Assembly: GCF_004765795.1 (NCBI RefSeq)
Contig: NZ_SBIV01000004.1
Span: forward strand, 248,001-312,000
Length of the DNA stretch: 64,000 nucleotides
Reading direction: 5' to 3'
Origin: Halorussus marinus
GTDB lineage: Archaea > Halobacteriota > Halobacteria > Halobacteriales > Haladaptataceae
Below are positions 14,653 through 39,249 of this stretch, piece after piece. A program made the translations under genes and the position numbers. The notes beneath the pieces were generated by a model. The model saw nothing but the letters and a program-made list of their open reading frames with translations. It was not told the DNA's origin and ran no database searches. Positions within the stretch are counted from its first letter, which is position 1; the number at the start of each line of letters is the position of its first letter.

Positions 14653-15777
14653 ATGAAATTGTCAGTTCTCCACTTAACTAATAATCTAAAAAGTGGAGCA
14701 ATTCCACACACTATTATTGAGCTCTCCCCACACCTCTCAAAAGAGTTCAACATATTTGCGGGCGGGCTTCTGGCAGGAAGTGATGCCCGAGTTAACGAAG
14801 AAGTAATTAATGAGTTAGAAGAGGTAGGAGTGACCCCACTACGATTCCAGTTTGACGTAAAACCGTTCTACAAGGCCATTCGTGAATTATATAATTCATT
14901 AGAATGTATAGATATATTACATACACATCTCGTCCGATCCGGCATCTTTGGGCGTGTTCTTGGCAATATCGCCGGTACACCCTGTATAGTTTCAACTGAA
15001 CAGTCTGTGCATACGGCTGACCAATACAATAAGAAACAGCGCTTTCTAAACAGTGTAACACTTCCACTCGCAGATTATGTAGTACCCATCTCATCAGCAG
15101 TAGAGAAATCGTTTAATTGGTGGGTGAAGTCAACGATACCTTCAAATCGTCGGAGAATTATTCACAATCCAGTTGATGGTAAAAAGATTCAATCATATCG
15201 TGAGGGGTCGATTGCTAGTCCAATTAGACCATTCATTTCGCAATCTTCACCGATTGTAGGTAGCGTAGGCAGACTTGCACCGGTAAAGAACCACGAACTT
15301 CTTCTGGACGCTGTTGCACCACTTACTGACCAGTATCCTGACCTTGGAGTCGTACTCGTCGGGGATGGTCCTCTTGAAGCAACTCTTCGTGAACAGGTGC
15401 AGCAGTTGGGTATAGAAGATTCGGTGCTATTTACGGGCCGAATCGAACGGAGTATGGTTTACACTCTCCTACACGAATTCGACGTGTTCGGAATGCCATC
15501 ACTCCACGAAGGACAGGGGATCGCGCTCTGTGAGGCGATGTGCGCTGGGACACCGATTGTAGCGTCAGATATCCCAGTATTTCGTGACATTCTCGGTGAC
15601 TCGGGACGACTCGTTGACTTCCATGCCGAAGACTGGTCGTCCGAACTTCGTCAAGCAATTTCGGAGAACGACGTAAGAGAGGATCTTCAAGTTCGCGCAC
15701 AAGAGAAATTTTCCCCGCAAAAGACAGCCGCCTTATATGAAGAAATATATAAAAACTCATTGAGGAACAGTGACTGA
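14653..15777 (+). CDS. GT4-family glycosyltransferase
   Basis: The 374-aa GT-B enzyme has an N-terminal Rossmann half (LHLTNNLKSGAIPHT, then DILHTHLVRSG near 92) and a C-terminal Glycos_transf_1 half with VGSVGRLAPVKNHELL (about 201), GDGPLEATL (about 238), and the E-x7-E donor-site motif in PSLHEGQGIALCEAM (about 280). It would transfer a sugar from a nucleotide donor to a lipid-linked oligosaccharide in the cytoplasm. It follows the sulfatase-like gene by 5 bp on the same strand, so they are probably one operon. Donor and acceptor are unknown. Confidence 0.9.
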   Translation: MKLSVLHLTNNLKSGAIPHTIIELSPHLSKEFNIFAGGLLAGSDARVNEEVINELEEVGVTPLRFQFDVKPFYKAIRELYNSLECIDILHTHLVRSGIFGRVLGNIAGTPCIVSTEQSVHTADQYNKKQRFLNSVTLPLADYVVPISSAVEKSFNWWVKSTIPSNRRRIIHNPVDGKKIQSYREGSIASPIRPFISQSSPIVGSVGRLAPVKNHELLLDAVAPLTDQYPDLGVVLVGDGPLEATLREQVQQLGIEDSVLFTGRIERSMVYTLLHEFDVFGMPSLHEGQGIALCEAMCAGTPIVASDIPVFRDILGDSGRLVDFHAEDWSSELRQAISENDVREDLQVRAQEKFSPQKTAALYEEIYKNSLRNSD

Positions 15778-15787: not shown

Positions 15788-17239
15788 TTAACTTGAAATA
15801 ATATCTCGCAAGGATCTAATTATTAATGTGATCTCGTCTCTAGAAACACCACCGATACCATATAGTATTATAAAGTAAAGTACAGCCGATGAGAGAATGG
15901 TGAACCAAATATTCTCGATCCACAACTGTCTGGCCAGGATATACATGAGGATGGCCGCGGTTCCAATCTTATTGACACCGGGAAAATGACTGTGAATTCC
16001 TAATTTCGAGCGAGACCATAATAGGATCACTGACAATACTAGCAGATATGAAACAACCGTCGTGATTACTGCTCCGAATAAGCCGAGTATCGGGATGAGG
16101 ATAGCATTCAGGATGACGTTAATTACTGCGCCAGAGAACCGAATAGAGGCTATCCTCTTCGGGGATTCTGCCGCAAAAAACAAACTACTATAAAGACGAA
16201 TCAGACTCCAAAGTGCTATGCCTATCCCGAGAGCAGGCAAAAGGTTCGCTGCCTGGACTGCGATTGACTCAGGTGCGATTAATCTTAGCAGAGACTCTCC
16301 TACAAGGAGGAATCCCAAGATTGAGGGGACACAAAGCGTTAGAAAATACCGCACGCCAGAGTTGAGGTATTGAATCGCCCTCTGACTTTCTCCGTCTTCC
16401 CAGAGGTTACTAAATTCGGGGAAAAATGAATTATTCAGCGGGAGTGCGAACAGGAGTATGAGGTTAGAAACTTTGTATGCAGTAGTGTAAACACCAACTG
16501 CGGTCGGCCCAAGGAAATAGCCAATGAGAAGTCGATCTGCACGGCTTAGAAATCCGCTCGAAACCTGACTAATCATAAATAGTGCTGAGTAATCAAATAT
16601 ACCTGGAATAGTTTGGAATTTAGGTACAGTGATTCCGATTCTCCGAATGACATCCGCCTGTAAAATAAGGAAAAAACAAATTTCTATGCCAATGATAGCA
16701 GTAACGACATCAGATAAGGATCCTGACATTATTACAACAATATAACTCACCATGCCTATCGTCACATACGTTTTCAAACCGTCTATGATCGAATAGAGTT
16801 TCAAAAACCTAGACGACTTGTAATAGTTTTTGACTATTCTGTTTAGGATACTAAGTGGCACAAGAACTGAACCCATCTGATACATTGCAGTATACTCTGT
16901 GTCTCCTAACGTCAGAGTTGAGATCTGACTTGAGTAAAAATAAAGAATCGCAGATATAGCGAACCCTATTAATGCAACAAAAGCTAATACGTCAAAATAT
17001 ATAATACATTTTTCTTTTTTATCTGTGCATCGCTGGAAATATCTGATGAGACCAGCATGGAGCCCTAGCCCAAATATTCCTGCAAATAAATTTGTGACGA
17101 CAAGGAGCTGAGCGTAGGCTCCATAGGCGCTGGTACCGAGATAAAATGTGATAATGGGTATGAAGAAAATACCACGTCCTTTTTGTGCTATCTTAACAAC
17201 TGTAGAAACAATAACATCTGATATTATCTTATCTTTCAT
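15788..17239 (-). CDS. Wzx-like lipid-linked oligosaccharide flippase (MOP/polysaccharide transporter family)
   Basis: The 483-aa protein has about 12-14 predicted membrane helices. The start resembles the family (KIAQKGRGIFFIPIITFYLG) and a mid-region SGFLSRADRLLIGYFLGPTA (about residue 225) is typical of polysaccharide exporters. It would move a lipid-linked glycan from the inner to the outer face of the membrane, the role proposed for AglR-type proteins in Haloferax. Its ATG at 17239 lies inside the 3' end of the polymerase gene (11-bp overlap), so the two are coupled. The codon use is AT-rich like the rest of this island. Confidence 0.85.
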   Translation of the reverse strand: MKDKIISDVIVSTVVKIAQKGRGIFFIPIITFYLGTSAYGAYAQLLVVTNLFAGIFGLGLHAGLIRYFQRCTDKKEKCIIYFDVLAFVALIGFAISAILYFYSSQISTLTLGDTEYTAMYQMGSVLVPLSILNRIVKNYYKSSRFLKLYSIIDGLKTYVTIGMVSYIVVIMSGSLSDVVTAIIGIEICFFLILQADVIRRIGITVPKFQTIPGIFDYSALFMISQVSSGFLSRADRLLIGYFLGPTAVGVYTTAYKVSNLILLFALPLNNSFFPEFSNLWEDGESQRAIQYLNSGVRYFLTLCVPSILGFLLVGESLLRLIAPESIAVQAANLLPALGIGIALWSLIRLYSSLFFAAESPKRIASIRFSGAVINVILNAILIPILGLFGAVITTVVSYLLVLSVILLWSRSKLGIHSHFPGVNKIGTAAILMYILARQLWIENIWFTILSSAVLYFIILYGIGGVSRDEITLIIRSLRDIISS

Positions 17240-18668
17240 TTTTATTTCTATAATATATAAAAATAATAGGAGAAAGTAATAATAAATGGTTCGAAATCAA
17301 CCAGAGAGCATTATTACCTAACTCTCCAGAGGCTACCGAGGCAAGACAGACACTGTACACAAGTAAAAAAACAGGAGAGTGGCGGTTCTTTACGAGAGTC
17401 TGGTAGAGAAGTCGAAGTGTGAACCCAAATAAGAGTGCTCCAACAATGATAGCAACGAGGCCACCATCAACGTATAACCGACCAATCATTCCGGGAGGTC
17501 TTCCACCATTTGCATCTGGACGGAATATTCTTCGAATTAATGAACCCACCGTAAGTACCGGTTTATCGGGCCAGACTGATCGAGGAATATAGTTGAGTGG
17601 AACTCGGAAAACAAATGTCCCCCAGAAGTACCCAATCTGTTCCGGAACAATTGATACTGTTACGAGGAGGTTATCTAAGTGACTATTATGGATGCCGAAG
17701 GTCAATATTTCGATGAGCCTGGCAGTATCGAACGACCCCGTTAGATCTCCCCCACTACGAAGACCACCCGAAACGACCGTACCGATTCCGATAAGTACGC
17801 CGAGCACTGGGAGTGACAACTGCTTCACTCGACGGTGTAAGCGATCAGCAGTGAAGTGGATATGACCCGACTTCGTTTCGAGAACGGGATATATATGCAC
17901 GTAGTACATCATAATAACTGAGATTAATATTATCAGAATAACCTGTCCGCGACCTCCTAATAGGAAGAAGAAACCAGAAATAGGAATGAGTGGAAGTAAG
18001 TGCGCGATCCCTGTTCGATTCCCGTCAATAAGCGTCCCAGTTATCCAAACAAGATAACCAATGTACATCGAACGGGCACCCAACTTGAAATGCGTCGCTC
18101 CATCGAACACGTTACTTCGCGGTTCCATCGTCGTATAGAGATATAAGAGGTTCCAATCAAGTGCAGACGCCACGAGTAGGATGTAGGACAACGTACCAAA
18201 GACCATGTACAGTAATCCAGCACGGCGGAACATCGTTCCGTCGTGGTCCCCGGAATCAGAAAAGAAAGTAGGTACCGTAATCCACCGCTCGATTTTAAAG
18301 TAATAGCCAATCAGCAACATCCCGTAGAATAGCACGTATAGTACTGAAACAATGAAAAACGCCGTAGAAAACTCCCAAGAAACCCACTTAGGATATCTAA
18401 AGTAGGGGTCTTGGAGATACACACGATCGAATATCGCTACGGTGGTCATGAACATAAATATTGAATAAAATACAATTGGTTCGAAGATATCGAACGTACC
18501 TCGAATGAGAGAAACAACGGTCGGAATCGCACAAACTAGAAAGAGTAATGCAATCAGCACAGATTGTAAGCCAAAGAAAAAGGAAAGGAGACCGCTAAGT
18601 GTACCGACTACTACGGCTACAAGTGCGACAGACACGTTCCGGTATTTGCCCTCCACAGCTGTATTCAT
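17229..18668 (-). CDS. Wzy-like oligosaccharide repeat-unit polymerase
   Basis: The 479-aa protein is mostly membrane helices (10 or more). Two loops match the O-antigen/oligosaccharide polymerase families: GGRGQVILIILISVI near residue 230 and VPLNYIPRSVWPDKP near 360, the latter a hallmark of this family. It would join repeat units on the outer face of the membrane. It overlaps the flippase gene by 11 bp. Together they point to a polymeric glycan, not only a short N-glycan, which is unusual next to an STT3 gene. The sugar is unknown. Confidence 0.82.
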   Translation of the reverse strand: MNTAVEGKYRNVSVALVAVVVGTLSGLLSFFFGLQSVLIALLFLVCAIPTVVSLIRGTFDIFEPIVFYSIFMFMTTVAIFDRVYLQDPYFRYPKWVSWEFSTAFFIVSVLYVLFYGMLLIGYYFKIERWITVPTFFSDSGDHDGTMFRRAGLLYMVFGTLSYILLVASALDWNLLYLYTTMEPRSNVFDGATHFKLGARSMYIGYLVWITGTLIDGNRTGIAHLLPLIPISGFFFLLGGRGQVILIILISVIMMYYVHIYPVLETKSGHIHFTADRLHRRVKQLSLPVLGVLIGIGTVVSGGLRSGGDLTGSFDTARLIEILTFGIHNSHLDNLLVTVSIVPEQIGYFWGTFVFRVPLNYIPRSVWPDKPVLTVGSLIRRIFRPDANGGRPPGMIGRLYVDGGLVAIIVGALLFGFTLRLLYQTLVKNRHSPVFLLVYSVCLASVASGELGNNALWLISNHLLLLSPIIFIYYRNKNER

Positions 18669-18718
18669 TGAGCGTCCTTGGTTAGTAACATGCTTGTTTC
18701 TAGGAATACTGTTTCTAA

Positions 18719-19885
18719 CTACGTGGCAAGGGATTCGAGCAATTTCTCATATCGTTCGACATAGCGTCCCATAGAGTACTCCTGAACAATATGTTCGCGC
18801 CCAGAAGTCCCAAGATCAGTCGCATACCCGGGGTTTTCGATGAGCGTTCCTAATGCTTGCGTTATCGATTGGGCATTTCCAGGTTCGACAAGTAATCCCG
18901 TTTCACCGTCTTGAACGACCTCGCTAGTGCCACCGACGTCAGTAGCAACGACAGGACGCTCCATGGCGAGAGCCTCCCGTACAGCACCGGGTATCCCTTC
19001 ACCAAACGACGGCAGCACAAACACGTCAAGGTCGTCGAGAAACGTGGGCATGTCTTCAACCCAACCGACAAAGGTCACGATATCATCTATTCCCTTTTCC
19101 TTTACTCTATTCTCAAGTCGTTGTTTATATGGGCTATCACTGACATTTGGTGGCTTACCAGCAATTCGCAGTTCGATACTCATGCCATTTTTGTACAGAT
19201 CTTCAATTGCTTCGATGAGATACTCAATTCCCTTCCTTTCGGAAAGCACAGCAGCAGTTCCAATCACTGTCGGGAATTCCCCAGGACTTGGTTGTTTTGA
19301 TGGAGAAAACTCATCCACATCTATTCCTTTATGGAAAAAAGTGAATTTATTACTATAAGTATTTTGTTGTCTATTTGTAAATACTTGGTCCGCTTGCTCT
19401 TCGTACTCCATGAATACAGTATCTGCGACTCGTAGTCCCAGTTCATTCAGATATGCCATTTTACCCTTTGATTGGAGTCCGAGCCCGATATTCCAGATGA
19501 TAGATGCATCTACAACGAATGTATTTGGGACGAGAGTAAGGACTTCACGAATGTTTTTACACCATATAACATCAGATTTCTTAAGTAAATATTTAGCCTC
19601 AACGTTAAATTGGAAAATCCGAGCCCCTGTTTTCATCACCTTAGCGGGTGAGAACGAAAGTAGCTCTCGATTATATGTGTCTAATATCCCACGAAAGGGA
19701 ACGATTTCGACTTCGATTCCTTGTTCTGCTGCACGTTGGCATAACTCATCAGAAGACTGCGAAAGAACAATTGGAAGAAACTTGTCTCGATCAATTGATG
19801 TTAGTAATCGGAGGAGCATCTGCGATGCACCACCAAATGATTCGTAAGCAGTGTGGAAAAAAAGGACGGTCGTACGGTCACTCAT
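18719..19885 (-). CDS. GT4-family glycosyltransferase
   Basis: The protein is 388 aa from ATG 19885 (begins MSDRTTVLFFH, a normal GT-B start); a frame extension to 19948 is not expected to be coding. Visible motifs are FGGASQMLLRLL, the donor-side VLSERKGIEYLIEAI, and the E-x7-E motif in LPSFGEGIPGAVREALAME followed by ATDVGGTSEVVQDGETG. It is a retaining-type sugar transferase acting on the lipid-linked precursor. It is encoded upstream of and in the same direction as the polymerase and flippase (50-bp gap), so they are likely one transcript. It is divergent from the second sulfatase-like gene. Confidence 0.9.
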   Translation of the reverse strand: MSDRTTVLFFHTAYESFGGASQMLLRLLTSIDRDKFLPIVLSQSSDELCQRAAEQGIEVEIVPFRGILDTYNRELLSFSPAKVMKTGARIFQFNVEAKYLLKKSDVIWCKNIREVLTLVPNTFVVDASIIWNIGLGLQSKGKMAYLNELGLRVADTVFMEYEEQADQVFTNRQQNTYSNKFTFFHKGIDVDEFSPSKQPSPGEFPTVIGTAAVLSERKGIEYLIEAIEDLYKNGMSIELRIAGKPPNVSDSPYKQRLENRVKEKGIDDIVTFVGWVEDMPTFLDDLDVFVLPSFGEGIPGAVREALAMERPVVATDVGGTSEVVQDGETGLLVEPGNAQSITQALGTLIENPGYATDLGTSGREHIVQEYSMGRYVERYEKLLESLAT

Positions 19886-20031
19886 TGTAATGGCTCCTCT
19901 GCACCTGTAATACTTTACTTTAAGGATTTGAGTCGATGACTCACCCATCTGAATATCGTTACGTCTAAATCCCGTTAGTTGGTTTAATGCTAGCTGAACG
20001 CTTAGACAAACCCACCTAAAATCGCTGACTC

Positions 20032-21483
20032 ATGAATTCTCCTAACATCGTACTAGTGGTGATGGATACTGCCTGCGCTAATGAAATAATACCACAAAAT
20101 GCACCGAATATAACGGATATCGCAAAGTCAGGAACCCAATTCTCAAACACATTTGCTACTGCTCCATGGACACTTCCTTCCCATGCAGGGCTCTTCACTG
20201 GAACTTACTCATCGAAGCATGGCGCACATGCAGGCCACAAACAACTGAACGGAAGGTTGGCAACACTTGGAGAAACCTTCCATTCCGCATCATACGAAAC
20301 CATTGCAATTTCGAATAATACGTGGATCAACGACGAGTTTGGATTTGGGCAGGGATTCAAGACGTTCTACAAGACATGGCAATACCTCCAGTCGGACGTG
20401 GATCTCACAGAAACTATCCGTAAAACCGAAGGGTGGGGGAAAATCCAAGCCGTTGCTTCAGAAATTATCGGAGGAAATCCTTTCATCAATTTCGTGAACG
20501 CAGCATACCGAAAGTTCGTGCGAAAAAGCGACGATTACGGCGCGAAGCGAACCAACCGGTGGATTTCCAACTGGCTCGACGACCGCGACACCCACCGACC
20601 GTTCTTACTCTTCGTGAACTACCTCGAACCGCATCTCGAATACCAGCCGCCGAAGGCACACGCCGAGCGGTTCCTCCCGGACGGCTGTCCCTTCGAGGAA
20701 GCGATGGAGGTCCCACAGGACGCCTGGGGGTACATCGCAGGGAACGTTGAAATGTCCGAAAGTGACTTCGAGATACTTCGCGCACTGTACCGAGCCGAGA
20801 TCTCGTATCTGGACCAGCGAATTGGAGAACTGCGTGACGAACTGATAGAGAGGGGTGAGTGGGAAGACACCGTGTTCGTCGTCACGGGTGACCACGGTGA
20901 AAACATAGGAGACCACGGTCTCATGGATCACCAGTACTGCCTCTACGATACGCTGCTCCACGTTCCGCTGGTCATCAACGGCGGCCCCTTCGAAGGCGGC
21001 GGAACCGTCGACGACCTCGTTCAACTCGTGGACCTCGCACCGACGCTACTGGACGTCGCGGACATCGACGCACACGAGATGCGAGCCCAGTTCCAAGGGC
21101 AATCGTTCCACCCGGACGCGGACCCGACCCGCGACCACGTAATCGCGGAGTACATGGCTCCCCAACCATCGATGGACGCGCTCGAAAAACGCGTCGGGAC
21201 ACTCCCCGAATCGGTGCGAACCTACGACCGCTCGCTTCGCGCAATTCGGACGGAAGACCACAAACTCATACGCGGTTCGGACGGGTCGCGAGAGTGCTAC
21301 CGAATTGGTGAGGATCCGAAGGAGACGACCGACTGTAGCAACGAGGATCCCGACTGGGCGTCCACGCTCGAAGCCGACCTCGACGACTGGCTCGGTTCGT
21401 TCGAACACGCCACCGTCGATGGATCGGTCGCGATGAAAGACGACACGAAACGACAACTCGAGGATCTCGGGTACCTTCAGTGA
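20032..21483 (+). CDS. sulfatase-family protein with Thr at the formylglycine position
   Basis: The 483-aa protein opens MNSPNIVLVVMDTACAN (metal site with Asp12) and has the active-site stretch APWTLPSHAGLFTG at residues 44-57. It aligns with the sulfatase C-x-P-S-R-x3-x-T-G motif, but Thr47 replaces Cys, so a formylglycine cannot form. The C-terminal metal site FVVTGDHGENIGDHG is present near residue 280. A Thr nucleophile is known in phosphotransferases such as LtaS, so phosphate or phosphodiester chemistry on a glycan is as likely as sulfate removal. The first 490 bp are AT-rich and the rest is typical high-GC haloarchaeal sequence. It overlaps the convergent glycosyltransferase gene by 7 bp. 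Confidence 0.85.
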   Translation: MNSPNIVLVVMDTACANEIIPQNAPNITDIAKSGTQFSNTFATAPWTLPSHAGLFTGTYSSKHGAHAGHKQLNGRLATLGETFHSASYETIAISNNTWINDEFGFGQGFKTFYKTWQYLQSDVDLTETIRKTEGWGKIQAVASEIIGGNPFINFVNAAYRKFVRKSDDYGAKRTNRWISNWLDDRDTHRPFLLFVNYLEPHLEYQPPKAHAERFLPDGCPFEEAMEVPQDAWGYIAGNVEMSESDFEILRALYRAEISYLDQRIGELRDELIERGEWEDTVFVVTGDHGENIGDHGLMDHQYCLYDTLLHVPLVINGGPFEGGGTVDDLVQLVDLAPTLLDVADIDAHEMRAQFQGQSFHPDADPTRDHVIAEYMAPQPSMDALEKRVGTLPESVRTYDRSLRAIRTEDHKLIRGSDGSRECYRIGEDPKETTDCSNEDPDWASTLEADLDDWLGSFEHATVDGSVAMKDDTKRQLEDLGYLQ

Positions 21484-22574
21484 ACGAGCGACCGTAGTTG
21501 GCTTGTCGTTTGCTCGACCGTCGTCTCCCATTCTTGAACGCCCGCAACCGACGTTGGGACCTCGTCGGTTTCGAGCCAGTTGTTGACGCTTCGAGCGAAC
21601 GCTTCCGTTGACTTGATGTCGACCAGTTCGCCGCGCCCATCGACGAGCTCACGGAGCTGGTCCAACTGCGAACACACTGCTGGAACTCCCGACGCCATCG
21701 CTTCCAGCACTGTCCGCGGTAGTCCCTCGGCCCTGCTCGGGAGTACCAGCACGTCTCCGCTCCGATACACTCTCGGCATCTCGTCGTAGGGGACGTGTCC
21801 GAGGAAGTAAACGGACTCCGAAATACCAAGTTTGGCAACGAGTTCCTCAAGGGTTCCGCGCAGCGGGCCATCGCCGCACAGGTACAGGTTGATCTCTGGG
21901 TGTTGCTCCTGAAGGCGAGCCACTGCCCTAATCGCGTCTTCGGGTCGCTTACCTTTCACTAATCGACCCACGAACAGCACCACTAAGCTCTCACTTTCGA
22001 TCAAATCGCTCTTTGGTCCGTCCGGCGTGAACCGCTGAGTGTCGATTCCGTTTGGAACAACTTCGATCCGCGAGCGCACTCCTAAATCCCGCACGCGTCG
22101 TTTGTCTGTCTCTGTGTAACAGAACACCACGTCCGCCTGCTCGAACGTCCACCGACCCAGCGTCCGGAGATACGCGTCGAACACCCGCTCTGTCGCAGAC
22201 TGCGAGTACAGACCGTGATTCGTGATCGCGAGCGGAACATCTCCCAGTCGTCGCTTTAGCGCGGCCAAGTTCGTCGAGAAGTACAGATGCGAGTGAGCGT
22301 GAATTACGTCGAACTCTTCCCCATCGATACCCCACAGATACCGCGCAACGGCCGGGGAGATGTCGTTACCAGCAATCGTCACGCCCGGCGAGAGGCGAAC
22401 TACCGTGTAACCGCACGTTTCCTCGACCGAGGGTAGGTCGGGGCCCTCTTTCGTCGTCAACACTGTCACGTCGTGGCCCATCTCGGCCTGGTCTCGGCTC
22501 ATGGCGTGGACATGGTACTGTCCGCCACCCTTGGTATCGGGGTACAACTTCTGTGCGACGCGAAGGATCCGCAT
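21477..22574 (-). CDS. GT4-family glycosyltransferase
   Basis: The protein is 365 aa from ATG 22574 (begins MRILRVAQKLYPDTKGGGQ, whose Gly-rich loop binds the acceptor side); the frame runs upstream to 22661 without coding features. The C-terminal half has VVLFVGRLVKGKRPEDAI, LYLCGDGPLRGTL and the E-x7-E motif in LPSRAEGLPRTVLEAMASG. It is a GT-B retaining glycosyltransferase for the surface glycan. In contrast to the first two GT4 genes it has ordinary high GC, so it may belong to the native part of the locus. Confidence 0.9.
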   Translation of the reverse strand: MRILRVAQKLYPDTKGGGQYHVHAMSRDQAEMGHDVTVLTTKEGPDLPSVEETCGYTVVRLSPGVTIAGNDISPAVARYLWGIDGEEFDVIHAHSHLYFSTNLAALKRRLGDVPLAITNHGLYSQSATERVFDAYLRTLGRWTFEQADVVFCYTETDKRRVRDLGVRSRIEVVPNGIDTQRFTPDGPKSDLIESESLVVLFVGRLVKGKRPEDAIRAVARLQEQHPEINLYLCGDGPLRGTLEELVAKLGISESVYFLGHVPYDEMPRVYRSGDVLVLPSRAEGLPRTVLEAMASGVPAVCSQLDQLRELVDGRGELVDIKSTEAFARSVNNWLETDEVPTSVAGVQEWETTVEQTTSQLRSLVH

Positions 22575-22786
22575 TTGCTGTTCGGTTGCTAGTATGCAGG
22601 TATCAACGTGACGATGTACATCAGTACTACACATGCTCTCGACTGGATTAGACCGCGCCACAGGAGGTGGACCCGGAATAGGAACCTTGATATGGAGTCA
22701 TTCAACTACGTCTTATCGTTGATTAATCACGGAACCCTCTACAGCAGGTATGGCCTACTGACCGTAGCTGTAGGAAACAAATGGAC

Positions 22787-22793
22787 GGAGGAT
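22787..22793 (+). promoter_or_regulatory. Shine-Dalgarno that decides the epimerase start
   Basis: GGAGGAT at 22787-22793 lies 5 nt before the ATG at 22799. The upstream in-frame ATG at 22781 overlaps this site, so translation must start at 22799. Confidence 0.6.
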
Positions 22794-22798
22794 ATTAC

Positions 22799-23776
22799 AT
22801 GAGCATTCTCATTACTGGTGGGTCAGGTTTCATCGGCTCTCACCTCGCCGATCACCTACTCGACGAGTCGAACGACAAAATACTCGTCTTGGACGACTTT
22901 TCGACCGGGGATGCCGGTAACCTCGACCACCTCGACACTGACCGAGTTGAGGTCCGCGACGGAGATATCCGTGACGCCGAGACCGTCCGCGAGACAGTCG
23001 GCGACGCCGACGCCGTCTACCACCTCGCAGCCGCAGTCGGCGTGCAGAACATCGTCGAGAATCCGCTTAACTCCCTGAAGACGAATCTCGAGGGAACCGA
23101 GAACGTCCTCGAAGCCGCAGCCGAAGACCGAACCCCGGTCTTCCTTGCCTCCTCGTCGGAGGTGTACGGCAAGTCCGAGGACGTACCTTTCAGCGAGTCC
23201 GACGACGCCGTCTACGGCCCGACGACGACGACTCGCTGGGGCTACGCGACCGCGAAGGCGACCGACGAATTCCTTGCCCTCGCCTACGCCGACGAACGTG
23301 ACCTTCCGGTCGTCATCGGTCGGTACTTCAACATCGTCGGCCCGCGACAGACCGGGCAGTACGGGATGGTGATCCCGACGTTCGTCGAGCAGGCGCTCGC
23401 GGGCGAGGACCTCACCGTCTACGGCGACGGCACCCAGACACGGAGTTTCACCCACGTCGCGGACGCGGTCGAACTCACCCACGAACTCCTTGAAAACGAG
23501 GACGCCCACGGTGAGATCTTCAACGTCGGCGCACCCGACCCGACGTCCATCAACGACCTCGCCGACCGCGCGATCGAGCTCACCGACTCCGACTCCGAGA
23601 TCACCCACGTTCCCTTCGAGAAGGTGTACGGCGAGGACTTCGAAGAGCCGGACCAACGTGAACCCGACGTGACGAAACTCCGTGAGACGCTCGGCTGGAC
23701 TCCGGAGGCGGACCTCGACAGGATCCTGACCGACGTGATCGACGAGCGAACCTCTGAGGAGGTCGTCGCGGAATGA
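22799..23776 (+). CDS. NAD-dependent sugar-nucleotide epimerase/dehydratase (extended SDR, GalE-like)
   Basis: The protein is 325 aa from ATG 22799. ITGGSGFIGSHL (about residue 5) is the NAD-binding Gly motif, ASSSEVYG (about 117) carries the catalytic Ser, and WGYATAKATDEF (about 144) contains the Y-x3-K pair. The enzyme would change the configuration at C4 of a UDP-hexose or dehydrate a nucleotide sugar. Its TGA overlaps the ATG of the dehydrogenase gene (ATGA), so the two act in one pathway, probably epimerisation and oxidation of the same UDP-sugar. The exact substrate is open. Confidence 0.88.
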   Translation: MSILITGGSGFIGSHLADHLLDESNDKILVLDDFSTGDAGNLDHLDTDRVEVRDGDIRDAETVRETVGDADAVYHLAAAVGVQNIVENPLNSLKTNLEGTENVLEAAAEDRTPVFLASSSEVYGKSEDVPFSESDDAVYGPTTTTRWGYATAKATDEFLALAYADERDLPVVIGRYFNIVGPRQTGQYGMVIPTFVEQALAGEDLTVYGDGTQTRSFTHVADAVELTHELLENEDAHGEIFNVGAPDPTSINDLADRAIELTDSDSEITHVPFEKVYGEDFEEPDQREPDVTKLRETLGWTPEADLDRILTDVIDERTSEEVVAE

Positions 23777-25191: not shown

Positions 25192-26613
25192 CTACTTCTC
25201 GCGCTCGTCCGCTCTAATTTCGAGGAGGTCCTCGAACACCTGCCAGAACTGCCGGACCACGATCTCTACGTCGAACCACGGCGACTGCTTGCGGATGTAC
25301 TCAATGTCGTACCTGATCTTCTCGGCCGGTTCTTTCCCCGTCGCGTCGTTGATCTGCGCGAGCCCGGTCAGTCCCGGTTTGACGAACCATCGCTGTCGCC
25401 AGATGTTCACCTCAGATTCGTATTCAGGCTCCAGTTCGGTTATCGCAGGGCGAGGTCCGACGACGCTCATATCGCCGACGAGGATCGACCACAGCTGGGG
25501 GATCTCGTCCAAATGGGTCTTCCGGAGGAACTCGCCAAGGGGCGTCTTCCGATCTCGTTCGATAGCTAAACTCACCTTCTCCTCTGGCTCCGGCTTGAGC
25601 GTCCGGAACTTGTATATCTGAAAGGTATCTCCGAATCGATACGTCCGCTCTTGCGTGTAGAACACGGGACCGTGTCCCTCGATTTTGATGGCAAGCGCAA
25701 TGAGCAGGATAATCGGAGAGAGGGCCAGCAGCGCCGTTCCGGCGAACGCCACGTCGAACAGTTGCTTCAGCAACCGGTCCTGCCAGTCCCACGGTTCAAG
25801 GTCGATCTCCACGACGGAGTCGTCCGCATCGCCCGGCGTCAGCACGGTGTCGGAGTGCTTGCGGTGGACCATCGCCCTGACGCCGTGTTCGTGGCAGGCG
25901 TGGAGCGCGCCGAAGAATTCGGCCCGGTCGGTCCGGTCGAACGCCAACACTGCCGTATCGACATCGTACTCAACGAAGACCTCGTCGAGTTGCGAAAGGC
26001 CGTCGAGCCGTTCGACGGCGTCCGGCGACCATCCGCTCCCGTCAGCGACGACGGGGTTCTCGGCGAGTCGGGGGTCCGTCTCGGTCTCATACGGACTCGG
26101 CGGCGCGACGTAGCCGACGACCGGCATGTCGATGGCTTCGAGTACCTCTAGTATCTCCTCGATGTCGTCGCCGACTACCACAGCACGTTTGCTACCTGTA
26201 GGCCGACGACCGATTGCTACGAACCACGGCGGAAGAACGACTAGCATTGTCATCACGGCCACCCCAAGCGTAGCGCGTGGCAGTCGATACGAGTAGTTTG
26301 CATAGCTGATTGCTGCGAGTGCGAATCCCGAGAGAACCACTCGCTTCTGGACGAGCAAGACCGTATCCAGCAACCGCCGTGGACGAGGCTTGAAAAGCGG
26401 AACGAAACTCGCCGTGACCATGGCAACTGTAGTTAGAAGGGCTATCACTAGATCGCCCCCTCCTAGTACAACGGGCGATAGTCGTCGCACGAGGGGGATG
26501 TGAGTCGTCACCTCCGATTGGACGACGGGGAGGTTACCGACGAGGACGCCGAGCACAGCCGCGGCGACGGTTCCCCCGACGCTCACGACGCGGTACCGGT
26601 GACCGGAGACCAT
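25192..26613 (-). CDS. polyprenyl/dolichyl-phosphate sugar-phosphate transferase (WcaJ-like initiating enzyme)
   Basis: The protein is 473 aa from ATG 26613; a GTG five codons earlier (26628) is possible. The N-terminal half has four or five membrane helices and a soluble nucleotide-binding-like part. The C-terminal 200 residues are the bacterial sugar transferase domain: a membrane-re-entrant helix, then GPVFYTQERTYRFG, TLKPEPEEK, and DEIPQLWSILVGDMSVVGPR. It attaches the first sugar-phosphate to the lipid carrier, starting glycan assembly. It is convergent with the dehydrogenase gene (51-bp gap). Archaeal use would be with dolichyl phosphate. Confidence 0.88.
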   Translation of the reverse strand: MVSGHRYRVVSVGGTVAAAVLGVLVGNLPVVQSEVTTHIPLVRRLSPVVLGGGDLVIALLTTVAMVTASFVPLFKPRPRRLLDTVLLVQKRVVLSGFALAAISYANYSYRLPRATLGVAVMTMLVVLPPWFVAIGRRPTGSKRAVVVGDDIEEILEVLEAIDMPVVGYVAPPSPYETETDPRLAENPVVADGSGWSPDAVERLDGLSQLDEVFVEYDVDTAVLAFDRTDRAEFFGALHACHEHGVRAMVHRKHSDTVLTPGDADDSVVEIDLEPWDWQDRLLKQLFDVAFAGTALLALSPIILLIALAIKIEGHGPVFYTQERTYRFGDTFQIYKFRTLKPEPEEKVSLAIERDRKTPLGEFLRKTHLDEIPQLWSILVGDMSVVGPRPAITELEPEYESEVNIWRQRWFVKPGLTGLAQINDATGKEPAEKIRYDIEYIRKQSPWFDVEIVVRQFWQVFEDLLEIRADEREK

Positions 26614-26682
26614 CACGCTATCCCCCACACCCAGTCAGCTTAAAAGCTATGAAGTACCGCCTCTGTATAGTGATTTAATACC

Positions 26683-27669
26683 TCACGACTTCCGCACGAG
26701 CGGTTCGTACCAGTCTCTATTCTCTTGATACCACTCCGTAAACTGCTCGACGCCCTCTCGAATTGTCGTCGTCGGCTCGTAATCGAGCAGCTCTCTCGCC
26801 TTCGAGACGTCGGCGTGGGTGTGTTCGGCATCGGCGTCGTTGCGCTCGTCGTACACCAGATCTAGCTCCGGCGCGAGCTGGTCTCGGATTTCTTCGGCCA
26901 GCACTCGAATCTCGATGTTGTCCGTACTGCCGATATTCATCGCCTCGCCATCCGCCGCGTTCGTCTCCAGCAGCGTCCCGTTCGCACGCACCACGTCGTC
27001 GATGTACGTAAAGTCCCGGGTTTGGGTCCCTTCTCCGTAAATAACGGGCGGCTCGCCGTTCATACACCGCGAGACGAAGTTCGAGATGGCCATATTCGGG
27101 CGCATCCGCGGGCCGTACACCGTGAAGTACCGCAGCGACACCGTCGGCAGCCCGTACACCTCGTTGTACACGCGCGCGTACTGTTCCTCGGCGAGCTTCG
27201 ACGCGCCGTAGGGGCTCACGGGCGTCGTCGGATGCTCCTCGTCGTACGGTAGGTAGTTGGGCTTGCCGTACACCGACGAGGAACTCGCGACGACCACGCG
27301 CGTGGTGTCGGAATTGCGGGCTGCCTCCAGTACGTTCAGCGTCCCATCGACGTTGATCTCGTTGACCTTCTGGGGCTGCTCGACGCTCGTCCGAACGCCC
27401 GCCTGCGCGGCCTGGTGGAAGACGAAGTCAGCGTCGCCGACGTACTCGTCGATAAGCTCCTCATCACGAATATCCCCCTGAATCAGTTCGTAACTACCGT
27501 CACTCTCCTCGGCTGCACGCCGACCCTGTTCGACGTTGTGTTCCTTGATGCCGAGATCGTAGTACGGCTCAAAGTTGTCGAGCGCGACTACGTCGTGGCC
27601 GTTATAGGCAAACTGCTCAGCGAGGTGACCACCGATGAAGCCCGCGCCGCCCGTCACGAGGATCTCCAT
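26683..27669 (-). CDS. NAD-dependent epimerase/dehydratase (UDP-glucuronate 4-epimerase-like)
   Basis: The 328-aa extended SDR has VTGGAGFIGGHL at residue 5, SSSSVYG near 128 and SPYGASKLAEEQ near 150 (Y-x3-K). The DNFEPYYD stretch near residue 33 is typical of UDP-glucuronate epimerases. With the nucleotide-sugar dehydrogenase in the same locus, a UDP-GlcA to UDP-GalA conversion is a reasonable inference. It lies downstream of the AglF-like gene in the same direction (52-bp gap), so they probably share a transcript. Confidence 0.88.
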   Translation of the reverse strand: MEILVTGGAGFIGGHLAEQFAYNGHDVVALDNFEPYYDLGIKEHNVEQGRRAAEESDGSYELIQGDIRDEELIDEYVGDADFVFHQAAQAGVRTSVEQPQKVNEINVDGTLNVLEAARNSDTTRVVVASSSSVYGKPNYLPYDEEHPTTPVSPYGASKLAEEQYARVYNEVYGLPTVSLRYFTVYGPRMRPNMAISNFVSRCMNGEPPVIYGEGTQTRDFTYIDDVVRANGTLLETNAADGEAMNIGSTDNIEIRVLAEEIRDQLAPELDLVYDERNDADAEHTHADVSKARELLDYEPTTTIREGVEQFTEWYQENRDWYEPLVRKS

Positions 27670-27721: not shown

Positions 27722-28480
27722 TCAGTTCACGGACGCCTCAACCGCGTCTGACTCATCTACTTCGATATCCTCACCACGCAACAACTTCTCGGCCTTCTCA
27801 CGGTCCTCGGGATAGCCAACATCGATGCGCCAGCCGTCCATCCGGATCGCGTCAATCGTCCGGCCGCTCTGGATTAGCAAATCGATTGCCTCGCTAATCT
27901 CGTACTCGCCCCGGTTCGACGGCTGCACTAGATGACAGGCGTGGAAGATAGCTGACGTAAACGTGTAGAAACCAGTCATCACGAGATTCGACGGCGGGTC
28001 GTCAGGCTTTTCGACAACATCAGTTATCTCGCCGTAATCGTTCGTGTCACAGACGCCGTACCGACCGGCGTCCTCGTAGGGCACCTCTTCGACCAGGAAG
28101 GCAGCATCCGCACGGTCCTCCTGCTGTCGGTTGACCACGTCGCCGAGGTTCGCGTCAAAGACGTTATCGCCGAGCATCAGCATGAAGTCGTCATCGATGT
28201 GCTCCTCGACAGTCAGCAGGGCATGGGCGAGCCCCTTCTGTTCGCGCTGGTGCGCGTAGGTCATCGGAATCCCATCGAATTCATCGCCATAGTGGTCGAT
28301 AATGTCCTGTTTCCGGTAGCCGACGACGACGACGAATTCGTCGGCGCCGAGCTCGGCCAACTGCTCAAAGCAGCGGGTTAGAATGGGCTTTCCGTCGACC
28401 TCAACCATCCCCTTGGGCTTGTCCTCGGTCAGCGGCCGCAGGCGAGTTCCCTCGCCGGCCGCGAGTACGACTGCTTTCAT
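27722..28480 (-). CDS. aglF: sugar-1-phosphate nucleotidyltransferase (AglF-like, UTP--glucose-1-phosphate uridylyltransferase type)
   Basis: The 252-aa protein opens MKAVVLAAGEGTRLRPLTED, followed by KPKGMVEVDGKPIL: the G-x-G-T-R-x6-K-P signature of nucleotidyltransferases. LMLGDNVFDANLG (about 140) carries the Mg-binding Asp. It would make UDP-Glc (or a dTDP/UDP sugar) for the epimerases and dehydrogenase of the locus. In Haloferax volcanii AglF has this role and its gene lies near aglB, as here. The symbol is given by this similarity and position; substrate specificity is not proven by the sequence. Confidence 0.8.
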   Translation of the reverse strand: MKAVVLAAGEGTRLRPLTEDKPKGMVEVDGKPILTRCFEQLAELGADEFVVVVGYRKQDIIDHYGDEFDGIPMTYAHQREQKGLAHALLTVEEHIDDDFMLMLGDNVFDANLGDVVNRQQEDRADAAFLVEEVPYEDAGRYGVCDTNDYGEITDVVEKPDDPPSNLVMTGFYTFTSAIFHACHLVQPSNRGEYEISEAIDLLIQSGRTIDAIRMDGWRIDVGYPEDREKAEKLLRGEDIEVDESDAVEASVN

Positions 28481-29080: not shown

Positions 29081-31453
29081 CTATTCTTCCACACTAATGT
29101 TCCCGCCGTTCTCGACCGCCCGCTCGGACACCGAAACGCTCTGATCTCCGACCGAGTAGGTGCCGGGATACGAGACAGTCACCGAGAAAGTCCCGTTCTG
29201 GGTGGTCTCAACGCTCCGACGGTACTCGAAAGTGGTGTTTTCGATCTCAACGTCAGTTGAGACAGTCACGATTTCACCAGCGGGAGCCGTCCCGGTAATG
29301 TTCGCCCCAGGAACGAGCGCGAACGCCTTCACCGACCCGTCGTCGCTAGCGTACACCGTCCGATAGTGGCCGACACCCGGTGCACCGTCATCGCCCGCAC
29401 TCCCGAACCGGAAGTGAAGCCGGGAGTACATAATGTCAGACGGCACTTGTCCGGGAAGGTCGAGATCCTTCGTGATGACGAAACCGACCTGATCGTTGAG
29501 CCGCTGGTACTGTGCTTCGGAATTGTTCGCCGCGAGGAACGGCTCGTAGTTGTTATCTGCGAACCCGTAACTCCGCGCCTCCCCGTTCACGAAGTAGTTG
29601 TACATTCGGTTGCGACCCCACTTGCTCAACACGTAGTTCTCGGGAGACTCCAGTCCACGATGGTCGGCATAGGCGTTAATCGACTGGGCCGCCGCGTAGT
29701 TGTCGCTGCCAATCTTCACCTGCTCGTGACGGACGGTCGTCTGGACCGCGCCTGCACTTGTGACGAACAGGAACAATATAGCGAGCGTCGTAATCGTACT
29801 CCGACTGGGAAGTCCAAGCGACAGACTTTCGTCGGAACCGCCGCGAGACGACTTCGATTCGCCGTTCACGAACGCAGGCCAGCGGACGATATCCATCTTT
29901 GCCGCGAAGGCGACGAATCCCCAGCCGGCGAGGATGGCGAAGAAGGGCCCGAGCTCGCCGACGAACCGTCGCTGGAGCGCCGCCAGCACCAGAAAGTACC
30001 CGCCGTAGGTCACAACGACGAGCCACGAAGAGTGATTAGTACGGTACGCTCGCCAGCCGGCATAGATTAGCACTGGGAAACCGAGTACCCAAACGAACCC
30101 GAGTTCTAATAGCGGGCCGAGGAGCAGTTGAATTGGTCCACCACCGAACATAGAGCGGTTTTCAGCTATTCCCGTCCGGAAAAGCAGGAAATCAAGCCGC
30201 TGCATCAACACGTCCATATACGACGGTAAAAATAGCTGTAACACTGCTAACCCACCTAGTGCGCCTGCGACCTCGGTCGTCCCGAAAGCAAATGCAGGCA
30301 ACTCCCTGCGATAGAACGCCTCCCCAATAAGCGACACCCCAACGACCCCGACAAGCACCAGCGCGGGCGAGTATGTGACTACCTCTGAGTGCCATCCGAA
30401 TGCGGTATGGGCAAGATGAGAGAGTACCGATGCGAACGCTAGCCCCGCAACGATCGGTGCGTTCGGGGCCAGCGACGACTCGCCCGCTCGGACGTAAGCC
30501 ACGGTCCGAACAGCAACGAAAACCCCCAGTGCGCCGACCAACAGCGGACCGGCCTCCCAGGCCATCACCTGTCCGGCGACCGCGACGCCGAGCACGCCCG
30601 ACGCGAGCCACGTCCGCGTATCCTCAAGTTCAGGGTGTCCCACATCCGCCAGTTCTACCAGCGCGAGGGCAGTCAGCGCAAGCCATGGGTAGTCGAACGC
30701 GTGGTGGTCGGAGAACCCAAGCCCCGTCCGGTAGGCAAAGGCGGGAATCACCCCGAGCAGCAGTACTGACGCGATACCAACACGGCGGTCGCCGGTTACC
30801 CGGACTGCAATAGCGTACACGAGGACACCGACGACGAGCGCCGACAACACGGGATACCACGCCAGCACCGCGCCGCTGGCGTCCGCACCACCCAGGGCGT
30901 TCGTCACCCACCACAGCGTCGCGACCATCAGCGGTTCGCCGTTCGCGACAGCACCGGGAAGATCCGAAAGTACGCTGAAGTCGAAAATACCGACCGCCTC
31001 GGCCGAGAGCTGGTCAACCCAGTAGCGGTAGTAGTAAGGATCGTTCGAGGAGAGCAGGACGCCGTCCGGGCGGAACACGTGACCCACAAAGTAGGCACGC
31101 ATTGCCGCAACGAACAGTAGTGCCCCGGCGAGCGCGCCAGCGGTCTCCCGCGACACGGAGGGAAGCCAGAGCGACGAGAACGCTGACCTGCTCAATTGAT
31201 CGCCATCGTCCGGTTCGTCGTCGCCGTCCAGACTCGCTCGGACAGCGTCCGGATCGACGACTTCGTACTCGCCGCCCGCTTTCGTTACGATGTCCCGCGA
31301 GACCAGCTCGCCGAAGGTTCCCGAGTCGAACGGTACGTCATCGAACGTCCACCCGTCGGCGCGCTCGTCTACCGCGAGGAGTTCGCGGAGGTCGGATTCG
31401 AGCTCCGGCTTCTCCGCGAGGAGATCGTCAGTCGCCTCGCGTACGTCAGTCAT
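29081..31453 (-). CDS. aglB: STT3/AglB-family oligosaccharyltransferase lacking the WWDYG motif
   Basis: The protein is 790 aa from ATG 31453 (begins MTDVREATDDLL; an upstream extension to 31510 is unlikely). Residues 1-95 are an acidic, winged-helix-like cytoplasmic region. About 12 membrane helices follow. Acidic site 1 is SSNDPYYYRYW (Asp138), acidic site 2 is FSDHHAFDY (Asp249), and the external-loop motif GIAEN holds Glu431, all as expected for STT3. The soluble C-terminal domain is shorter than in Haloferax AglB, and where WWDYG should be it has SKWGRNRMYNYF (Lys611-Asn615). It would transfer a lipid-linked glycan to Asn, but acceptor binding must differ. It could be a paralogue of a canonical AglB elsewhere. 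Confidence 0.85.
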   Translation of the reverse strand: MTDVREATDDLLAEKPELESDLRELLAVDERADGWTFDDVPFDSGTFGELVSRDIVTKAGGEYEVVDPDAVRASLDGDDEPDDGDQLSRSAFSSLWLPSVSRETAGALAGALLFVAAMRAYFVGHVFRPDGVLLSSNDPYYYRYWVDQLSAEAVGIFDFSVLSDLPGAVANGEPLMVATLWWVTNALGGADASGAVLAWYPVLSALVVGVLVYAIAVRVTGDRRVGIASVLLLGVIPAFAYRTGLGFSDHHAFDYPWLALTALALVELADVGHPELEDTRTWLASGVLGVAVAGQVMAWEAGPLLVGALGVFVAVRTVAYVRAGESSLAPNAPIVAGLAFASVLSHLAHTAFGWHSEVVTYSPALVLVGVVGVSLIGEAFYRRELPAFAFGTTEVAGALGGLAVLQLFLPSYMDVLMQRLDFLLFRTGIAENRSMFGGGPIQLLLGPLLELGFVWVLGFPVLIYAGWRAYRTNHSSWLVVVTYGGYFLVLAALQRRFVGELGPFFAILAGWGFVAFAAKMDIVRWPAFVNGESKSSRGGSDESLSLGLPSRSTITTLAILFLFVTSAGAVQTTVRHEQVKIGSDNYAAAQSINAYADHRGLESPENYVLSKWGRNRMYNYFVNGEARSYGFADNNYEPFLAANNSEAQYQRLNDQVGFVITKDLDLPGQVPSDIMYSRLHFRFGSAGDDGAPGVGHYRTVYASDDGSVKAFALVPGANITGTAPAGEIVTVSTDVEIENTTFEYRRSVETTQNGTFSVTVSYPGTYSVGDQSVSVSERAVENGGNISVEE

Positions 31454-32331: not shown

Positions 32332-34044
32332 TTATTGCCTTCGAATGGCTACGAGGAAGCACCCAACGAGAACAATGATCGTAGTAATCGCTCGAAAGCC
32401 AGGAACGGATTGGGAGTCTTCGATCGTTTGTTGATTGATCGGAGATTCCGGGTTTCCTGATGATGCTTGAGTGATACCCGCTTCAGTCGCTGCTTCGTTC
32501 GTAGTCGTCTTCGATGTGGTCGTACGAGTCGTTTTGGTTGTTTCTCGAGTCGTCGTTTGAGTCGTCGACGTGGTCGTAAAAGTCGATTCCTTCGTAGTGA
32601 GCGACGCAGGGACGGTTTTATTGTATTCTGGGATCTCAACGGAAAGATTCCCAGTCGAAGATGCGTCACTAAGATCAAAGTTCGCGGTAAAACCGCCAGT
32701 CTGATTGACCACGACACGCTGGTTTTTTGTGAAGCTTGAAGATCCCTCATTATAGTGTACCTGAACATCGAACTGGGATCCGGGTTCCACTTTTGCTTCT
32801 CCCGTGACCGAGGCATCTTCCGTCAGGGTGATTTGATCGCCGGTGTAATTAAGCCGAACTTCCCATATTCGCACGGCAGAGTACTTTTTGTTCTGATCAG
32901 AGAGCGTGATGGTAAATCGGTCACCGCGTCGCACATCACTAAAATCGAACGTGGTCTGGAACGTCTGATTTGCCCGGACCGTTGCCTGTTTCGTTTCGAC
33001 GAAGGGTGGGATCCCGTCATACGATGCCGTTATATTTATCCTCTCGCCCGGGGGTAGCGTTGTCGTCCCCCTGATAGTGTCTGTCCCGTTGACTTGAATC
33101 GGATCCGTCGCGTGCTCTAACTGTGCTCGGGCCGTAACGACGCTGAAATCCGCGGTGGTTGACGGTTGGCCATCGACGAAGGGATTGTCTCCAACAACCG
33201 AAACGTTCGCCCGATACCGATCGCCGGCCTCAATTCCGTGACGGCCCGTGTTGACGAACGCGTAAAGCGAGTCCGTCTGAGGTTCGTTGACGAACTTTTC
33301 GATGTCCGTTTCGTCGAACCGATTCGGTTGCACGTTCATCGTCGAACTTTGCTGTTCGAACTGTGCGGTAAACAGATCGGAGGCATTCTCAGACGAGCGA
33401 AGAAATCCGTTACTGAATTCAGACGTGTTGACTGCGAGGACGACCCACCGGCCTTTCGCGACGGAGGGAATAGTCCCCGAATCGACAGGGATCGAACCTT
33501 CCGTTTCGACCGGATCGGTGACTTCGCTAACGTCCGTCGTCGGTGGGATAATCCACTGGTCGATGTTACCGCTGAATTCCGGCGGTGATCGCGGCTTGAT
33601 GATGAACTTGCCGAGTGCGACCTCACGCCCGTCGACGGTGATATTCATGTCGTACGTCGCGGCCGCCAGCGGGCGATCGACCTCTTTGACCTTTTTCGTC
33701 AGGCTTCCGCCGCCGCTGACGATTTGCTCGACGCTCGTCTCGTAGGTGTTGAGACTGATTTCGGTCGAGCCGCTGATCTCCATCTGCACCCAGAATCCAT
33801 TTCCGGGCGAACCGAGGTTGAGCGTCGCCGGACCATCGACCGATGCGGAGATGTTGAGCGTGTTCCCTCGGGTTCCCCGTACGACTTTCGGGGAAAAACT
33901 GCCATCGACTGATTGCGTCGCGAGGATCGCACTACGCTCGGAACCCGTCGCTTGACTTACCGCGAGGGGGGATAGTATCGAACCGGAAACGACGAAGAAC
34001 ATCGTCGCAAGCGCGAGCGTTTGAGAGAGCGAGGGCATGTTCAT
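32332..34044 (-). CDS. PGF-CTERM surface protein (BGTF-like, archaeosortase A substrate)
   Basis: The 570-aa protein has an N-terminal signal peptide (hydrophobic stretch about residues 8-30, small residues after it), beta-rich repeats resembling haloarchaeal surface glycoproteins, many N-x-S/T sequons, a long Thr/Ser-rich linker (about 465-520; O-glycosylation type) and the C-terminal tripartite signal: Pro548-Gly-Phe550, a hydrophobic helix, then RRQ. PGF-CTERM proteins are cut and lipid-anchored by archaeosortase A. It follows the archaellin gene in the same direction. It is probably a cell-wall or appendage-associated glycoprotein and a likely customer of the nearby STT3. Its specific role is unknown. 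Confidence 0.85.
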   Translation of the reverse strand: MNMPSLSQTLALATMFFVVSGSILSPLAVSQATGSERSAILATQSVDGSFSPKVVRGTRGNTLNISASVDGPATLNLGSPGNGFWVQMEISGSTEISLNTYETSVEQIVSGGGSLTKKVKEVDRPLAAATYDMNITVDGREVALGKFIIKPRSPPEFSGNIDQWIIPPTTDVSEVTDPVETEGSIPVDSGTIPSVAKGRWVVLAVNTSEFSNGFLRSSENASDLFTAQFEQQSSTMNVQPNRFDETDIEKFVNEPQTDSLYAFVNTGRHGIEAGDRYRANVSVVGDNPFVDGQPSTTADFSVVTARAQLEHATDPIQVNGTDTIRGTTTLPPGERINITASYDGIPPFVETKQATVRANQTFQTTFDFSDVRRGDRFTITLSDQNKKYSAVRIWEVRLNYTGDQITLTEDASVTGEAKVEPGSQFDVQVHYNEGSSSFTKNQRVVVNQTGGFTANFDLSDASSTGNLSVEIPEYNKTVPASLTTKESTFTTTSTTQTTTRETTKTTRTTTSKTTTNEAATEAGITQASSGNPESPINQQTIEDSQSVPGFRAITTIIVLVGCFLVAIRRQ

Positions 34045-35595: not shown

Positions 35596-35603
35596 TGGTC
35601 TCA

Positions 35604-35626
35604 CAAGCATCCGCGTCGGATGCTTG
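35604..35626 (-). promoter_or_regulatory. strong hairpin immediately before the archaellin start codon
   Basis: CAAGCATCCG (35604-35613) and CGGATGCTTG (35617-35626) form a perfect 10-bp stem with a 3-nt loop, ending 8 nt before the ATG at 35595. It may be a 5' mRNA hairpin that protects the transcript or controls translation, or an operator dyad. Confidence 0.55.
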
Positions 35627-35650
35627 ACTATCTCCGTATTTAGATAGGAC

Positions 35651-35660
35651 TGATAAATAA
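35651..35660 (-). promoter_or_regulatory. TATA-like element of the archaellin gene
   Basis: On the minus strand TTATTTATCA reads as a TATA box. Transcription would begin about 27 nt on, near 35628, right at the outer edge of the hairpin. A second AT-rich TCTAAATACG lies closer (35637-35646) and is the alternative. Confidence 0.4.
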
Positions 35661-35870
35661 CTATAGGCCTAATATCAACGCTGATAATCCGGTGTCTGAC
35701 AGGACTATTCGAACCGGCCAATAAATAAGCATCTGGAAAAAGATCAGATCGAGCACTCGAATCGCCGGATTTGTCGGTGCTCTTCTCGCATCCTTGAGCA
35801 GTGTGCGCGAACGTCGTAGTTATGGCCGCCCAAAGAGAGTACGCAGAGCCTACCAGACAGGTTCGAGGAT

Positions 35871-38687: not shown

Positions 38688-39249
38688 AGCAGGAACTTCA
38701 GAAAGTAAGTATAAAATAACTATCGTCAGTTTCACTTCTTCTTGTGAGCGACTTTCCAGCCAGCCCAAATGGGTTACGTGTCGCGGCGGCGCCGTCGCCT
38801 GCCGCGACGATGGTCATACACGGTATCGGACAGCGTCCGTGGAGTCCCTATTCTTCGACCGGTGTCGATGGCGCCGAACGGCGATTAACTGACATGGCGT
38901 GCCAGACCGAATGCCGACCGCCACGGAGTAGTTGTTAAACAAGTATCATAATATCGAGTCTACCAGACATCCTTGCCGGAGCATTCCCCAGCCATTGACA
39001 GTCGACCTCGCAAACAGATTGCTTCGGTCACCGACCATTACATACCGCCGAAGGGTGGTACGGTCACTTATAGTCGGAAACCGCCGTATCTGCCGTTTTC
39101 GTGCCACAATCGCGGAATTTTCTAAATGACTCAGAGCGCGCCAACACACCGCTTCTCGATATTTCCGCACACGAGTTGAATATAATACATGTGTGTGGTC
39201 GGCGGTGTTATGGATAATTTTTAATACGAAATCGGAGAGCTACCAGAGT
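38688..39249. other. 562-bp intergenic region
   Basis: No convincing gene is seen; the open frames are short and lack family likeness. It contains a perfect 8-bp inverted repeat (GTCGCGGC 38780-38787 and GCCGCGAC 38801-38808) and is AT-rich towards its right end. It separates the divergent CetZ and amidohydrolase genes and probably carries both promoters. Confidence 0.6.
39218..39226 (+). promoter_or_regulatory. TATA-like element of the amidohydrolase gene
   Basis: TTTTTAATA centred near 39222 is 28 nt before ATG 39250, the spacing of a leaderless haloarchaeal promoter. Confidence 0.5.

Follow-up and report, generated by a model that had tools for sequence, protein, structure and literature searches.

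A conserved haloarchaeal family of AglB-like oligosaccharyltransferase paralogues without WWDYG, associated with Asn-2 of S-layer proteins

The STT3/AglB/PglB family of oligosaccharyltransferases is regarded as using the sequon without exception, an ability attributed to the WWDYG motif. The window analysed here, a 64 000 nucleotide stretch of the genome of Halorussus marinus, encodes an AglB-like protein without this motif, which raises the question of whether the protein is an oddity or a second oligosaccharyltransferase with a donor and an acceptor of its own. Frame and translation of the window place the ORF from an ATG at 31453 to 29081 on the minus strand (790 aa), with the following features:

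29081..31453, minus strand: AglB-like oligosaccharyltransferase paralogue without WWDYG, 790 aa (Pfam/NCBIfam matches, AlphaFold2 model, PDB match)
29609..29623, minus strand: KWGRN, residues 611-615, in place of WWDYG; consensus across the family xWGxNR[MV]YNYFVNG (family alignment)
31169..31453, minus strand: extra N-terminal domain, residues 1-95, common to haloarchaeal EMC3/TMCO1-like insertases and missing in canonical AglB
29159..29308, minus strand: AglB_L1 peripheral domain, residues 716-765 (Pfam)

The original prediction, made from the sequence alone, quoted D138, D249, E431 and K611-W612-G613-R614-N615 followed by RMYNYF, and all of these residues were confirmed. Its claim that WWDYG is missing also held: a search for a displaced WWDYG across the whole 790 aa found none, and the sole WW, at residue 181, lies within a TM helix. 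The protein had been called shorter than Haloferax AglB; we compared it instead with the canonical AglB of its own genome, and it is indeed shorter (790 versus 1055 aa). That canonical AglB, the second gene for which a check had been proposed, is a separate gene with SWWDYG that scores 950 bits against NCBIfam archaeo_STT3 (TIGR04154), and its presence elsewhere in the genome led us to reject the paralogue as the sole AglB. The paralogue scores 29.4 bits for Pfam STT3 and 40.9 bits for AglB_L1, above the respective cut-offs of 24.5 and 23.6, and reaches 146 bits against archaeo_STT3, well below the cut-off of 450, so that the threshold for the canonical subfamily is not met. The TIXE motif of external loop 5, also expected of canonical AglB, is not met either, the paralogue family keeping the Glu only. 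Because canonical AglB was present in all eight genomes checked, we infer that the paralogue represents an added function.

A scan of named genomes returned 52 related loci, all haloarchaeal, and alignment of the 52 sequences showed that the KWGRN form is neither an oddity nor a sequence error, and that it marks a conserved, separate haloarchaeal family. Residues W612, R616 and N619 are invariant (52/52), as are N137-D138 and R496; E431 is present in 51/52, and N615 (48/52), Y618 (50/52) and G624 (50/52) are near-invariant. Position 611, equivalent to the first W of WWDYG, varies freely, most members have Gly where WWDYG has Asp, and none of the 52 sequences has WWDYG at this position. An order-wide search (394 genomes) returned many further full-length members, and it is likely that most haloarchaea carry this second version. 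A phylum-wide sample of 394 genomes contained no member outside the haloarchaea: the 45 genomes with a match all belong to the same order. The original prediction of a paralogue with altered acceptor recognition is thus supported as regards a conserved separate family; altered acceptor choice itself is still inferred. The prediction would have been refuted had the KWGRN form belonged to a known subfamily that uses sequons normally; no such case was encountered in the open-access literature searched, where we found no description of this subfamily; subscription journals may hold earlier notice.

The second metal motif (residues 249-251) reads DHH in Haloarculaceae- and Halorussus-type members; in those of the Natrialbaceae and Halorubrum types it is EHR or DHQ. 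It is possible, from the sequences only, that metal binding differs between these two subclades.

The fold was predicted with AlphaFold2 from 46 relatives (pLDDT 90.5). The best PDB structural match of the model is Archaeoglobus fulgidus AglB (7e9s, E 9e-24), with bacterial PglB and eukaryotic STT3 at ranks 5-19, and the GT-C multi-TM fold with a C-terminal globular domain that characterizes the STT3/AglB/PglB superfamily is present. A profile search against PDB sequences aligned N137-D138 with A. fulgidus D47, D249-H-H with D161-H-H163, E431 with E360 and R496 with R426, landmarks whose roles have been described (PMC8342417). The metal and catalytic residues of the superfamily are therefore present as D138, D249/H251 (D/E and H/R/Q across the family), E431 and R496, and the paralogue is an AglB-fold protein, as modelled, that keeps these residues and has WWDYG replaced. 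The profile-profile alignment to canonical AglB covers the TM part only (100-528), ending before the DK/MI motif, which in canonical AglB forms the Ser/Thr pocket, and the WWDYG equivalence rests on a common [VIL]-[ML]-S-x-W anchor, not on structural superposition.

Like archaeal AglB (AfAglB, PDB 7e9s/3wak/5gmy, and the Hfx. volcanii and Hbt. salinarum enzymes), the paralogue has a 13-TM GT-C fold, an AglB_L1 domain, the first Asp motif (GND/SND), a DHH second motif in most members, the catalytic Glu of external loop 5 and the phosphate-site Arg. It differs in having no WWDYG, only the Glu of TIXE and an extra N-terminal domain, in falling ~260 aa short of the canonical AglB encoded in its genome, and in being tied to donor genes for dolichol pyrophosphate (Dol-PP) rather than Dol-P. 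Bacterial PglB and eukaryotic STT3 have in common with it the fold and, on the donor inferred below, a Dol-PP/Und-PP-type carrier; they differ in that both have WWDYG and require a sequon.

The N-terminal domain resembles that of an EMC3/TMCO1-like membrane insertase of haloarchaea (locus L030, 1372-2349; 37% over 73 aa), the gene for which sits between adenylate- and cytidylate-kinase-like genes. That the domain couples the paralogue to secretion is possible, and remains speculation. A domain held in common with an insertase, together with the drift of the second metal motif away from DHH in Natrialbaceae and Halorubrum, could suggest a non-catalytic or regulatory AglB relative, acting as a decoy or partner of canonical AglB. 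We consider this very unlikely, given the invariance of N137-D138 and R496, the near-complete retention of E431 and the tight linkage of the paralogue to its own donor pathway.

That donor pathway can be read from the surrounding genes (profile matches unless another basis is given):

32332..34044, minus strand: surface protein encoded immediately upstream of the paralogue, having a BGTF surface domain and a PGF-CTERM-like tail; putative acceptor
27722..28480, minus strand: AglF-type UTP--glucose-1-phosphate uridylyltransferase (NF041313, above cut-off)
26683..27669, minus strand: NAD-dependent sugar epimerase/dehydratase
25192..26628, minus strand: polyprenyl-phosphate sugar-1-phosphate transferase (Bac_transf), which initiates pyrophosphate-linked glycans; single copy in genome
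23773..25140, plus strand: nucleotide-sugar dehydrogenase
22781..23776, plus strand: NAD-dependent sugar epimerase
21477..22661, minus strand: family 4 glycosyltransferase
20032..21483, plus strand: sulfatase/phosphodiesterase-fold enzyme
18719..19948, minus strand: family 4 glycosyltransferase
17229..18668, minus strand: Wzy-like O-antigen polymerase (19.9 bits, under the Pfam cut-off of 24.2)
15788..17239, minus strand: Wzx-type flippase (Polysacc_synt)
14653..15777, plus strand: family 4 glycosyltransferase

The paralogue heads a minus-strand run that continues with the AglF-type uridylyltransferase, the epimerase and Bac_transf. A polymeric donor had been suggested as a possibility in the original prediction, and is supported by the adjoining Wzx/Wzy-like and sugar-1-phosphate transferase genes; the link to Dol-PP glycans, the Halobacterium salinarum copy beside an S-layer gene and the Asn-2 acceptor signal, all considered below, go beyond it.

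Across 57 paralogue loci the commonest conserved neighbour is Bac_transf (34 loci). In a comparison of 80 genomes, Bac_transf was found in 39 of the 41 with the paralogue versus 12 of the 39 without it (Fisher p=8e-10), usually as a single copy per genome; its presence without the paralogue in those 12 genomes counts against strict coupling. Both the linkage and the co-occurrence are shown. Enzymes of the Bac_transf class make a pyrophosphate-linked sugar, and the donor of the paralogue should therefore be Dol-PP, unlike the Dol-P of haloarchaeal AglB. We infer from these two lines of evidence that the donor is a Dol-PP-linked glycan, often polymeric. In Haloferax volcanii a PF02516 match, our control, was present and no Bac_transf match was found, and the AglB-independent low-salt oligosaccharyltransferase of that species is probably a different enzyme.

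The gene surroundings resemble an exopolysaccharide or O-antigen cluster, and the exopolysaccharide clusters of H. hispanica adjoin glycosylation genes (PMC9943897). These points favour a rival explanation in which the paralogue is a polymer ligase or O-linked transferase, moving a Wzy polymer to lipid, Ser/Thr or another surface anchor during exopolysaccharide or capsule making. PglL/WaaL-type O-oligosaccharyltransferases and ligases likewise transfer Wzy polymers beside Wzx/Wzy genes; none was among the structural matches of the model with E ≤1e-3. This rival is unlikely, as the fold and residues are those of an Asn-oligosaccharyltransferase, nearest to A. fulgidus AglB, as the paralogue is linked to S-layer genes and associated with Asn-2, and as the Dol-PP polymer known from H. 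salinarum is an N-glycan.

The case of H. salinarum bears directly on the acceptor of the proposed second oligosaccharyltransferase. Its S-layer Asn-2 bears a glycan of repeating units that is assembled on dolichol pyrophosphate. Replacement of Ser-4 by Val, Leu or Asn does not abolish this glycan, and neither an explanation nor a second transferase was known (PMC2952790). The puzzle is reported to date from 1998, and the Asn-2 transfer activity has reportedly been known since the 1980s with its gene unidentified; later papers left open whether AglB transfers this glycan (PMC6591318; PMC3871713). One genome in our set (G083) encodes a bacteriorhodopsin 100% identical to that of H. salinarum over all 259 aligned residues, and on this identity we take it to be H. 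salinarum. In addition to the Dol-PP glycan pathway of that species, it encodes the paralogue (C1:932308-934617), with the S-layer gene 3.3 kb away and its only Bac_transf 5 kb away, and with canonical AglB on another contig. The mature S-layer N-terminus reads ANAD, in which Asn-2 is present without a sequon. The traits expected of the unidentified Asn-2 transferase (Dol-PP donor, polymer glycan, S-layer Asn-2, dispensable Ser-4) match those of the paralogue; the identity is unproven and the transfer inferred. Our evidence for the species is confined to G083, the laboratory strains NRC-1 and R1 lying outside the search.

To extend this comparison, S-layer proteins were recognized by TIGR04216 and the ends of their signal peptides were read, only alignable proteins being entered; a mechanical rule scored Asn in either of the first two positions that follow the signal-peptide Ala run. 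Asn-2 was found in 18 of the 26 genomes with an intact paralogue versus 1 of the 18 in which it was lacking or interrupted (p=3e-5). The pattern had first been noticed in 15 genomes and was then tested on others, with paralogue presence rescored in full; the later-collected set gave 10/17 versus 0/12 (p=0.001), and within-genus permutation gave p=0.0016. The rule miscalls a few genomes (G164 and G374 scored as positive, G355 as negative), and hand reading gave 17/26 versus 1/18. In g7, a Halorubrum-like genus, the four genomes that encode the paralogue have VNAD, ANAG, VNVT and ANSG, versus IQEG, VDGS and TPSI in three without it. In genomes with both genes on one contig, paralogue and S-layer gene lie within ~55 kb of each other in 9/9 Asn-2 genomes versus 2/9 others (p=0.002). 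The association is shown; it may partly reflect co-inheritance, or joint replacement, of S-layer alleles with glycan islands. Three non-Asn-2 genomes have interrupted paralogues (G275:C39:190933-193652; G079:C3:2360527-2363007; G236:C50:53905-56265), which could represent either real decay or sequencing error.

The association has exceptions. All eleven Halorussus genomes have a single S-layer type, ADVQRGG or a close variant of it, in which Asn-2 is absent, for which reason only two of them entered the test. Asn-2 is likewise missing from some Haloarcula S-layer proteins, although in both cases the paralogue is intact. Either a different protein serves as acceptor in these organisms, or the Asn-2 hypothesis is not the whole account.

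Most Asn-2 sites have no Ser/Thr at +2 (NAD, NEV, NRG, NER, NAR, NAG, NSG, NSN), and some are also sequons (ANAS, VNQS, VNVT, SNDS). The latter, the unidentified Halorussus acceptor and the retained catalytic residues would fit a rival explanation in which the paralogue transfers a Dol-PP glycan to ordinary NXS/T sequons, the +2 hydroxyl being read by the R616/N619 element. The absence of Ser/Thr from most sites, the dispensability of Ser-4 in H. salinarum (PMC2952790) and the Gly in place of the WWDYG Asp argue against this reading, which we regard as improbable.

On balance, and by a modest margin, we favour a second haloarchaeal oligosaccharyltransferase for Dol-PP-linked, often polymeric glycans, sequon-relaxed and directed to the N-terminal Asn-2 in many genera; there is no biochemistry, and activity, donor and acceptor are all inferred. 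In this model, the Bac_transf enzyme would put sugar-1-phosphate on dolichol phosphate, glycosyltransferases would lengthen the Dol-PP-linked sugar, Wzx would flip the lipid-linked glycan, and Wzy, where present, would polymerize it outside. The paralogue would then move the chain from dolichol pyrophosphate to protein via the usual metal site (D138, D249/H251, E431, R496), the acceptor in Halobacterium, Halorubrum and several other genera most likely being Asn-2 of the mature S-layer glycoprotein. No NXS/T sequon would be needed, because in place of the WWDYG pocket, which reads the +2 Ser/Thr, the paralogue has a different conserved element (W612, R616, N619). A bolder reading, for which the evidence falls a little short, is that of a sequon-independent enzyme that recognizes the freshly processed S-layer N-terminus and adds polymeric Dol-PP glycans to Asn-2. 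Such an enzyme, inherited together with the genes for its acceptor and donor, would be the one still lacking for the prokaryotic N-glycan that has been known the longest.

If the favoured model is true, this large natural family, its catalytic site kept and its pocket rebuilt, would reveal a way in which an oligosaccharyltransferase can lose or replace sequon reading. It would also provide a candidate gene for the Halobacterium enzyme that transfers the Dol-PP repeating-unit glycan, and would account for an Asn-2 glycan that survives mutation of Ser-4.

Several further observations concern the window itself. The surface protein at 32332-34044 has no homologue near other paralogue loci, and so is not supported as a conserved acceptor. 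An archaellin-type (PF01917) ORF of 598 aa (34219-36015, minus strand), whose N-terminal extension is long if translation begins at the first start, also lies near the oligosaccharyltransferase and has no relative in the other paralogue loci. GC content is 0.42-0.44 over positions 14000-20000, which hold the Wzx, Wzy and glycosyltransferase genes, versus ~0.70 in the flanks, and a DDE transposase (12058-13227) lies by these low-GC genes; together they indicate an acquired glycan island. Upstream of the island lies a CetZ tubulin-like gene (37593-38768, minus strand).
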